Origin: an uncultured Burkholderiales bacterium
GTDB lineage: Bacteria > Pseudomonadota > Gammaproteobacteria > Burkholderiales > Burkholderiaceae_C
Assembly: GCA_903861115.1 (NCBI GenBank)
Contig: CAIOTD010000025.1
Location: 1-64,000, forward strand
Length of the DNA stretch: 64,000 bases
Direction: 5' to 3'
Part shown: positions 31,418 through 56,719 of the stretch, one piece after another
Position numbering within the stretch: the first letter of the stretch is position 1
How the letters are laid out: every line of letters starts with the position of its first letter
Notes under the pieces: model-generated
Databases searched by the model: none
The model's input: only the letters and a program-made list of their open reading frames with translations
What the model was told of the DNA's origin: nothing
Position numbers and translations under genes: made by a program

Positions 31418-32719
<1,302 letters not shown>

Positions 32720-52360: not shown

Positions 52361-53212
52361 TCAATGACTCCATTGAACCCACTCGTAATGGGCGGTGATC
52401 AAAATCAAGAGGCCAAAGGCAATGCGGTAATACGCAAACACCATAAAGTTGTGTGTTGAGATGAATTTGAGCAGCCACCGCACACACACCCACGCACTCA
52501 AAAAGGAGACGATCAAGCCCACCAAAAAGAGCGGCGCATCATGCCAACTTAACAACGCCCGCTCTTTGTACAGGCTGTAGGCCCCAGCCCCGAGAAGCGT
52601 GGGGATGGCCAAGAAGAAAGAAAATTCCGTGGCCACTTGTCGACTCAAACCCAACAGCATCCCGCCAATGATCGTGGCGCCCGATCGCGACGTTCCCGGC
52701 AACATGGCCAAACACTGAACGAGGCCGACCTTCAATGCATCTTGACCTGACATGGATTCCACATTCAGCACGCGAACGCGGTCATTGGGGTGCTCATCCA
52801 AAGCCTTGGGGCGGCCAAAGCCTTCGGCCCACAAAATGACAAAGCCCCCAACGATGAAGGTGCTGGCAACGACCCAGGGGGTGAACAAGTGTGCTTTGAT
52901 CCAATGACCAAAAAGCAGCCCCATGATGACCGCAGGCAAAAAGGCGATGCACACATTGATGGTCAAGCGCTGAGCAGTTCTTGATCTGGGGAGCGCCATC
53001 ACCGTTGTTTTAATCTTTGTCCAAAAAACAAGCACCACGGCAAAAATTGCGCCCGATTGAATGGCAATGTCAAAGACCTTGGCTCGCTCATCATCGAATT
53101 CAATCAAGGAACCCACAAGCACCAAATGTCCCGTTGAGGAGATGGGTAAAAACTCGGTCAGTCCCTCAACGACCCCCATCAGCACCGCTTTTAACATCAG
53201 CATCACGTCCAT
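52361..53212 (-). CDS. uppP: Undecaprenyl-diphosphatase
   Basis: [20 protein letters not shown]..., [22 protein letters not shown]. Confidence 0.97.
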
Positions 53213-53384
53213 GTCCACGCTCAATCCTTGGTTCAAAAGTCAATCTGTTGCTTGGATCTTTTCGCACCCAAAGCGTGCCAATTATCCTTTGCAAGTGCAA
53301 GCTTTGATGCACGAATACAAAAAAATATCGTTTTGCGCCGCATTGAACGCACTTATGCACCAAGACGCGCCTAAAATCAGCGCC

Positions 53385-55229
53385 ATGAGCGCCAAAGATC
53401 CATCTCCACACAATGCCCCAACGCCCGCGCACCCTGCTGCGCCTTCCTTGACGCAAGACAAGCCCAGCAATTTTTTACGCCAGATCATCGAACAAGATTT
53501 GGCCAAAGGCGAATACAGCACTCGCCAGTGGGCGGGCTCTCCAGGACCTAAATCTCACCAAGCGCAGGGCCCTTTGGACACGGCGGCAATTCGAACTCGT
53601 TTTCCGCCTGAACCCAACGGCTACTTGCATGTCGGTCATGCAAAAAGCATTTGCATCAATTTTGGCTTGGCGCAAGATTATGAGGGTGTGTGTCACATGC
53701 GCTTTGATGACACCAACCCAGAGAAAGAAGACACCGAATATGTCAACTCCATCTTGGATGCGGTCAAGTGGCTTGGCTTTGATTGGGACAAAGAGATCAA
53801 TGGCCAAAAGGTCTCTCATTTGTATGAGGCCAGCGCCTATTTCGAATTCATGCACGAGGCTGCACTTGCCTTGATTGCATCAGGAGATGCCTACGTTGAT
53901 GAGCAAAGTGCTGATCAAATGAGGTCCACCCGCGGGGATTTCTCTACACCAGGGACCAACAGCCCCTTTCGCGATCGAAGCCCACAAGAGAACTTGGCTC
54001 GCTTTGGCGCCATGAAGAACGGTGAGTTGGCAGATGGCACGGCCGTGCTGCGCGCAAAAATTGACATGGCCTCTCCCAACTTGAACATGCGTGACCCGGC
54101 CATTTACCGCATTCGTCGAGCGCACCATCATCGAACGGGAGACCGTTGGTGCATCTATCCGATGTACACCTTTGCACACCCGATAGAGGACGCACTTGAA
54201 CACATCACACACAGCTTTTGCACACTAGAGTTTGAAGATCAACGCCCCTTTTACGATTGGCTTTTGGACAAACTCATTGGACTTGGGCTCTTGAGCGCCC
54301 CAGCCCCCAAGCAGTATGAGTTTGCACGTTTGAATTTGACCTATGTGATCACGAGCAAGAGAAAATTGGCACAACTCGTGAACGAGGGCCATGTGGGCGG
54401 TTGGGATGACCCGAGGATGCCCACCCTTGTGGGGCTTCGCAGAAGAGGCTTTACGCCCGAGAGCATCCGCGCCTTTGTTGAACGCATTGGTGTCACAAAA
54501 AGTGACAGCTGGATTGATTACAGCACCCTTGAGGGTTGTCTCAGAGAGGACCTGGAGGGCAAGGCGCCAAGAGCCATGGCCGTCTTGGAGCCCCTGCAAC
54601 TGACCTTGACCAACTGGCAAGAGGTGATGGGAGAGGTGGCCAGCCTCCCTGTCTCAGCCCCCATGCATCCAAGTCACCCTGAGTGGGGTCAGCGTGATTT
54701 TTTATTCTCTCAACATTTGTGGATCGAAAAATCCGATTTCGCACAAACACCACCGAAAGGCTTTTTTAGGCTTTTCCCCGGCAACAAGGTTCGTCTGAAG
54801 TACGGCTACGTGATTGAGTGCGAGGGGTGTGTCACCAACGAAAAAGGTGAGGTGACTGAAGTCTTGGCAAAAATCATTGCAGACACCAAAAGCGGCACAC
54901 CTGGGGCCAATGCCATCAAGGTCAAGGGCGTGATCACTTGGGTGAGCCAGATGGACGCCTTGAGCGCTGAAGTGCGCATCTATGACCGACTCTTCACCGA
55001 TCCCCAACCCGATGCGGGCGGCAAAGACTTCCTTTTGGCCATCAACCCAGACAGCCTCAAAACCGTTCAAGCCAAAGTGGAGCCCAGTTTGAGCGCTGTT
55101 GCTGGCAATCAACATTTGCAGTTTGAGCGTCACGGCTACTTTGTGAGCGACCGCATCGACCACACGAGCACGTCGCCCGTCTTTAATCGCATCACGGGCT
55201 TGAAGGATTCTTGGGCACCAGGGAGTTGA
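53385..55229 (+). CDS. glnS: Glutamine-tRNA ligase
   Basis: TRFPPEPNGYLHVGHAKSICINFGLA, VITSKRKL; start set at ATG 53385. Confidence 0.97.
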   Translation: MSAKDPSPHNAPTPAHPAAPSLTQDKPSNFLRQIIEQDLAKGEYSTRQWAGSPGPKSHQAQGPLDTAAIRTRFPPEPNGYLHVGHAKSICINFGLAQDYEGVCHMRFDDTNPEKEDTEYVNSILDAVKWLGFDWDKEINGQKVSHLYEASAYFEFMHEAALALIASGDAYVDEQSADQMRSTRGDFSTPGTNSPFRDRSPQENLARFGAMKNGELADGTAVLRAKIDMASPNLNMRDPAIYRIRRAHHHRTGDRWCIYPMYTFAHPIEDALEHITHSFCTLEFEDQRPFYDWLLDKLIGLGLLSAPAPKQYEFARLNLTYVITSKRKLAQLVNEGHVGGWDDPRMPTLVGLRRRGFTPESIRAFVERIGVTKSDSWIDYSTLEGCLREDLEGKAPRAMAVLEPLQLTLTNWQEVMGEVASLPVSAPMHPSHPEWGQRDFLFSQHLWIEKSDFAQTPPKGFFRLFPGNKVRLKYGYVIECEGCVTNEKGEVTEVLAKIIADTKSGTPGANAIKVKGVITWVSQMDALSAEVRIYDRLFTDPQPDAGGKDFLLAINPDSLKTVQAKVEPSLSAVAGNQHLQFERHGYFVSDRIDHTSTSPVFNRITGLKDSWAPGS

Positions 55230-55291: not shown

Positions 55292-55305
55292 TTGATATTG
55301 ATCAA
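55292..55305. promoter_or_regulatory. FNR/ANR-type box
   Basis: TTGAT-ATTG-ATCAA, perfect consensus dyad, intergenic. Confidence 0.75.
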
Positions 55306-55363
55306 AGACCAGAAAGCTTGTTCACAGTAAATTGAACCTGCAAGACCGCTTTGAAAGTTCAAG

Positions 55364-55564
55364 ATGCAAAAAAAACAAACCCTTCCCTATTGCCCCAATG
55401 CGCAAGTCCACGTGCAGACCAAAGACGGCTTTGACGCGTGCATCACCGAACATCAATGCTTCAGCGATGACCCCTGCCCCTTGATGCAACAGTTCACAAC
55501 ACAAACCGTCATCAAATCCAATCGCAAAGACGCTAGCCTTGCACAGCCCAATCCAAGGCCTTGA
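55364..55564 (+). CDS. Small 4-Cys protein of unknown function
   Basis: 66 aa with C10, C26, C32, C38; codon usage looks coding; FNR-type box and -10-like TAAATT upstream at class II spacing. Confidence 0.5.
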   Translation: MQKKQTLPYCPNAQVHVQTKDGFDACITEHQCFSDDPCPLMQQFTTQTVIKSNRKDASLAQPNPRP

Positions 55565-55663: not shown

Positions 55664-56719
55664 ATGTTTCGGTTTATTTTTTGCGTGTTGTTCATGATGA
55701 ATGTGCTGGGTGCGAAAGCACAAAATTACCCCCAAGCCATTGAGCGGACTTGGGTTGCCAAAAACTTTAAATTTCACACCGGCGAGGTGTTCAAAGAGTT
55801 GACCGTTGGTTTCACGACGGTGGGAGACCCCAAAGGTTTGCCTGTATTGATGTTGCACGGCACAGCAGGCAGCGCCAAATCTCTATTGAACACGCAATTT
55901 GCGGGGGAACTTTTTGGCCCGGGACAAGCACTCGATGCGAACAAATACTTCATTGTGTTGCCAGACAGCATTGGTGTTGGGCGAAGCAGCAAACCCTCAG
56001 ACGGTCTCAAACGACAGTTTCCAAGATACAACTACGAAGACATGGTCAAGGCCCAATACAGGCTCATCACGGAGGGGCTGGGCATTGAGCATTTGAGACT
56101 TGTGAGTGGCAACTCCATGGGCGGCATGCAAACTTGGTTGTGGGGCGTCTTGTACCCCGATTTCATGGATCTCTTGGTCCCCTTGGCCTCAACGCCCAGT
56201 GCCATGTCAGGCAGGAATTGGATGACCAGAAGACTCATCATCGACTCGATCAAAAACGACCCCACTTGGAACAACGGCAACTACACAGAGCAGCCCAAAA
56301 GTTTAAAATTTGCATCCGCTTTTTTCTCAATCGCCACGAGTGGCGGCACGAAAGCCTTGCAAAGAATAGGGGCCACTCGAGAAAAAGCCGATGCTTTTGT
56401 GAATTCAAAATTGAGCGATGCGACGCCCGCTGATGCCAATGACAATTTGTACCAATGGGAGTCATCGGCCGATTACGACCCTGAGCCTTTCCTAGAAAAC
56501 ATCTCAGCGCGTGTCTTGATCATCAATGCCGAAGACGATGAGAGAAATCCACCCGAGCTCGCCCGCATTGAGCGCGCACTCCAAAGAATCAAAAATGCGC
56601 GATTTCATCTGATCGCATCCAGCGACCAAACATCCGGTCATGGCACCACAGGACAAGCCAAATGGTGGCATCAAGAGTTGAGCAAAGAGCTCCTTGCGAC
56701 CCCCATGCGCAAGCCTTGA
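55664..56719 (+). CDS. Alpha/beta hydrolase, homoserine O-acetyltransferase-like fold
   Basis: Signal peptide-like N-terminus; VLMLHGTAGSAKSLL, SGNSMGGMQTWLWG, ISARVLIINAEDDERNPPE. Confidence 0.9.
   Translation: MFRFIFCVLFMMNVLGAKAQNYPQAIERTWVAKNFKFHTGEVFKELTVGFTTVGDPKGLPVLMLHGTAGSAKSLLNTQFAGELFGPGQALDANKYFIVLPDSIGVGRSSKPSDGLKRQFPRYNYEDMVKAQYRLITEGLGIEHLRLVSGNSMGGMQTWLWGVLYPDFMDLLVPLASTPSAMSGRNWMTRRLIIDSIKNDPTWNNGNYTEQPKSLKFASAFFSIATSGGTKALQRIGATREKADAFVNSKLSDATPADANDNLYQWESSADYDPEPFLENISARVLIINAEDDERNPPELARIERALQRIKNARFHLIASSDQTSGHGTTGQAKWWHQELSKELLATPMRKP

Follow-up and report, generated by a model that had tools for sequence, protein, structure and literature searches.

A predicted class II FNR promoter in front of a small four-cysteine protein from an apparently undescribed family in Burkholderiales

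Escherichia coli YdfZ is a small protein. Its gene is activated by FNR, has no known function and is listed with a site at -41.5 (PMC3688515), the position on which the box is centred in class II FNR promoters (PMC3688515, PMC7349173). Such promoters are represented by E. coli narG and dmsA and by cld of Ideonella dechloratans, a species from which a class II FNR promoter was tested (PMC7349173), and they combine a box at -41.5 and a -10 element with no consensus -35. In the betaproteobacterium Accumulibacter, usp and hemerythrin genes, as well as cco and hemN, are reported members of the FNR regulon in the part of the source consulted (PMC6446978), in which no small four-Cys protein is named. 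A search of the open-access literature found no described FNR-regulated, Cys-rich small protein of the kind presented below.

The gene considered here belongs to a freshwater Burkholderiales bacterium and lies in a stretch of DNA of 64,000 nucleotides that was analysed as a whole (hereafter the window). The first-pass annotation had pointed to an exact TTGAT-N4-ATCAA site at 55292-55305 and, on re-reading, this plus-strand box, TTGATATTGATCAA, agreed with the FNR consensus at 10/10 positions, its centre falling at 55298.5. A class II layout had also been proposed, every coordinate of which proved correct: the -10-like hexamer TAAATT (55328-55333, plus strand) fits positions -12 to -7 of a class II FNR promoter, the transcription start predicted from this geometry is at 55340 on the same strand, 41.5 bp downstream of the box centre, and a leader of 24 nt extends from there to the ATG. 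A weak Shine-Dalgarno-like GAAAG (55353-55357, plus strand) can be read from the sequence 6 nt before the start codon, and a consensus scan found no sigma-70 -35/-10 pair. This arrangement is shared with narG, dmsA and cld, and the host likewise encodes FNR proteins with the cluster cysteines and an ETxSR helix; in contrast to these promoters, the start and the oxygen response are here predictions from the sequence, and the gene product is a new protein. The likeness to ydfZ is restricted to regulation, both being genes without known function behind a class II FNR site. Among FNR-activated small proteins, a known class, the gene would be a new member.

The ORF (55364-55564, plus strand) is unannotated and has one possible start, the ATG at 55364. 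As the initial description of a tiny four-Cys ORF implied, its 66 amino acids include exactly four cysteines (C10, C26, C32 and C38), spaced as C-x15-C-x5-C-x5-C-P, with a core of the form CFSDDPCPL-x3-F and a variable C-terminal tail. That its family had not been recognised was right for the libraries searched: Pfam and NCBIfam gave nothing above cut-off for the ORF and six of its relatives, and a PDB profile search returned noise only (E 0.6-0.7). The protein family thus appears to be undescribed in these libraries. Two familiar kinds of four-Cys protein were considered and rejected, namely zinc ribbons or rubredoxin-like proteins, since the two CxxC knuckles are absent, single Cys follow at intervals of 15, 5 and 5, and there is no Pfam or PDB match, and ferredoxins (4Fe-4S, CxxCxxCxxxCP), since the Cys spacing differs and there is no Pfam match.

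Homologues with conserved cysteines, the first check suggested for this ORF, were found and carry the same four cysteines. Strong matches occurred in 18 of 84 genomes of the same genus, a patchy distribution (19/84 at E 1e-3 if the doubtful weak match L071 is counted), with some genomes carrying two copies of the small gene; L047, together with the weak matches L016, L049, L050 and L071, was set aside as spurious or doubtful. Matches in named records came from genomes of Burkholderiales and Comamonadaceae; most of these are MAGs, among them one of Polaromonas. All four cysteines are invariant across all aligned members, the last one in C-P; in the closer group, which keeps the C-x15-C-x5-C-x5-C spacing, the residues C-F-S-D-D-P-C-P are invariant too. 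The family is under purifying selection, with pairwise dN/dS values of 0.12-0.27 over aligned codons and 0.07-0.18 over the core, where computable.

Small proteins beginning with MFDSP in other Burkholderiales families display the same four Cys and a CP(L)xxxF end, and profile-profile comparison links this distant group to the closer one with a probability of 96% (E 3.7e-9). Of 398 genomes searched in the order, 14 contained members of the distant group, as did 2 of 276 searched in the class, and the three of its proteins that were scanned had no Pfam or NCBIfam match. Unlike the window ORF, several of these proteins start with CPxC, and only L036 and L037 among those checked have a box close upstream; FNR control therefore does not extend to every member of the family. 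One genome outside the order has two copies of the distant family next to each other (L135 and L136; G561:C279:20413-20839).

The upstream box is conserved with the homologues, and so is the class II position of the -10, both in line with the layout first proposed. Taken together, the 220-bp stretches upstream of 34 non-redundant relatives contained 6 perfect boxes, where dinucleotide shuffles predict 0.01; boxes with at most one mismatch numbered 15 (0.5 predicted by the shuffles) and TTGAY-N4-RTCAA sites 13 (0.06 predicted). These counts treat the relatives as independent, which is not fully true, and the boxes recur in several unrelated neighbourhoods. An equal length (220 bp) downstream of the same ORFs held no perfect box, one with at most one mismatch and two TTGAY-N4-RTCAA sites. 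The stretch 580-800 bp upstream was also boxed (9 with at most one mismatch) and is not a clean null, because a usp or hemerythrin gene that has a box itself precedes several relatives by about 500 bp or more. At -65 from the ATG, as in the window, the orthologue boxes are TTGATATTTATCAA (L086), TTGACAAGGATCAA (L082), TTGACCAGGATCAA (L083) and TTGACTTCTGTCAA (L069), and the same or a similar GAAAG-like motif is found at these four loci. Of the 18 boxed loci, 15 have a -10-like hexamer (at least 4/6 to TATAAT) downstream of the box, with a gap of exactly 22 nt between the two. This spacing centres the box on -41.5, as in class II promoters, and puts the -10 at -12 to -7 by sequence geometry, as in the window; the bases between box and hexamer are unrelated across clades. 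At the 22-nt gap, the mean match to TATAAT was 3.67, compared with 1.63 (sd 0.32) at other gaps, a score reached by none of 5000 permutations and holding with one sequence per clade. Two relatives with no near box, L080 and L081, follow a usp gene that carries TTGATATAAGTCAA; a hemerythrin gene that carries TTGACTTAGATCAA precedes two hemerythrin-linked copies.

The genes surrounding the relatives are diverse. In the window, the upstream neighbour is a glutamine-tRNA ligase-like (glnS) ORF (53061-55229, plus strand), named by sequence appearance and probably starting further inside these coordinates, and the same order of glnS-like gene and small ORF occurs in L002 and L003. Overall, the relatives occupy at least six settings, including positions after glnS, after a tex-like gene, next to fnr and behind hemerythrin; some seem to share an operon with boxed hemerythrin or usp genes, and the L095 relative is between two usp genes adjoining ccoI-ccoNO-fnr-hemN. 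Several relatives, some with boxes, are surrounded by the same kinds of genes as those reported for the Accumulibacter FNR regulon (PMC6446978). One relative is fused to a nitronate-monooxygenase-like (NMO-like) flavoprotein as a C-terminal four-Cys domain (L100:4204-5550), beside ytfE/RIC and an Rrf2 regulator; the fusion was found in one genome only, and the C-terminal tail was absent from the other NMO orthologues checked. Perfect boxes accompany the NMO orthologues of the host and of G021, the host gene being L122 (G000:C23:366-1529) with its perfect FNR box at C23:224-237. In the same genome, a hemerythrin-domain gene (L103:1156-1813, G000:C33) has a perfect FNR box, TTGATTTAAATCAA, just upstream.

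The gene, its class II layout, the host FNR and the conservation are well supported at the sequence level, and together they very probably represent a real, undescribed low-oxygen protein family with an FNR switch. We consider it probable that a class II FNR promoter drives an undescribed 66-aa cytosolic protein that likely has one metal site and serves as a redox or metal-handling accessory. At low oxygen, [4Fe-4S]-FNR would bind TTGATATTGATCAA at -41.5 and recruit RNA polymerase to the weak -10 (TAAATT) without a -35, and the small protein would be made from a transcript with a 24-nt leader; the expected oxygen response of the gene follows from this promoter model. The four invariant cysteines would most likely form a single metal site, with Zn, Fe or an Fe-S cluster, although they could instead reflect disulfides or a purely structural role. 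AlphaFold models were unusable (pLDDT 55 for 14 full-length sequences and 49 for 13 core sequences), which leaves the presumed metal or Fe-S site without fold support. The protein would probably serve the microaerobic and nitrosative response as an accessory for redox or metal handling, together with hemerythrin, Usp proteins, cbb3 oxidase and Fe-S repair. We infer a small accessory function in handling redox, iron or NO; the precise biochemical role stays a guess, as neither a fold nor a profile or PDB relative was found.

A plausible if less probable account takes the protein to be a structural-Zn adaptor or anti-regulator that is merely expressed at low oxygen from the same promoter, with no redox chemistry and no Fe-S contact. 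Four cysteines would suit such a role, some distant relatives start with CPxC like a zinc knuckle, and one relative has a weak, sub-threshold zinc-ribbon match. However, the window ORF is without the second Cys of a knuckle, and the contexts are those of iron and redox genes (hemerythrin, ytfE/RIC, the flavoprotein fusion and cbb3). The neighbourhoods also bear on the idea that the protein, sitting near ccoI, helps to assemble cbb3 oxidase by handling copper or another metal, which we regard as unlikely: L095 in the same genus and L043 in the distant group do place a relative beside a ccoI-like ATPase, but most copies, the window copy included, are far from cco genes, and these are general FNR-cluster genes, whose proximity may only mean co-regulation. 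Both the zinc and the copper accounts share the promoter part of the favoured explanation, and the confidence placed in them is not exclusive of it.

The identity of the regulator was considered in the same way. Dnr- and FixK-like regulators bind the same kind of site as FNR, and the box could accordingly serve another member of the CRP/FNR family with the same site preference, responding to NO or another signal. One relative does reside in an Rrf2/RIC neighbourhood, yet the two host FNR proteins, which align over their length with a solved FNR, both have the ETxSR helix and all four cluster cysteines (CxxCx5C plus a fourth Cys), and the third Crp-family protein found in the host is without the cluster cysteines and has a different helix (RETVTR). 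Control by such a regulator is thus improbable, in a genome that is about 92% complete and from which a regulator may have been missed. The second FNR paralogue (L052; G000:C32:6470-7162), on another contig of the same genome, is about 45% identical to the first. It was found in 12 of 18 carriers of the small gene and in 3 of 66 non-carriers in the genus (Fisher p 6e-8, shared ancestry uncorrected), an association counted by hand among genomes that include many incomplete MAGs. Elsewhere on the contig that bears this second FNR gene (L096:2503-3685, G000:C32), a perfect box occurs upstream of an OsmC-like ORF and an unannotated ORF for which Pfam gave no match.

Downstream of the small ORF is an alpha/beta hydrolase gene (PRK06489-type, MetX-like by Pfam/NCBIfam; 55664-56719, plus strand). 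As the gap is 99 nt and no terminator was found on the plus strand, co-transcription of the two genes is possible, and the box might be real but mainly serve the hydrolase, the small ORF being no more than a passive leader. This is very unlikely, since boxes precede other relatives at quite separate loci, where the genes that follow are different, and since the small protein is under purifying selection.

FNR-type sites with at most one mismatch number 15 in the window against 2.9 expected from shuffles, and the only other perfect FNR-type box there (32432-32445) is within a coding region, enolase-like by eye, and probably due to chance. The host genome holds 35 perfect boxes per 2.79 Mb, several of them inside genes, and none of the reversed control pattern; at this density, a given ORF would have a perfect box in the 100 bp before it by chance with a probability of about 0.001. 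A chance box before a spurious ORF is hardly credible: small ORFs and near-consensus boxes are common, and some of the 35 genomic sites are clearly in genes, but the ORF, the cysteines, the box and the -10 spacing are conserved across several separate loci.

Beyond the FNR-driven accessory protein favoured above, a more specific scheme may be put forward, albeit tentatively. In it, this unrecognised Burkholderiales family would use a new C-x15-C-x5-C-x5-C-P pattern for an Fe-S (or iron) site that is sensitive to oxygen or NO, would be expressed at many loci, each time from a class II FNR promoter of its own, and would act as a redox, iron or Fe-S-repair partner of hemerythrin, YtfE/RIC and flavoenzymes.

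Small proteins are mostly missed by annotation, and the regulatory signature of the present family is unusually clear. With common cysteines, a common box and a common -10 spacing at separate loci, the question of which tiny proteins bacteria produce at low oxygen, and for what reason, becomes directly testable. Several of the named relatives are MAGs with isolate names that resemble sites in a dataset from oxygen-stratified lakes and ponds (PMC8121793), a link inferred by name. In oxygen-stratified waters, low-oxygen adaptation matters for the turnover of carbon and greenhouse gases.
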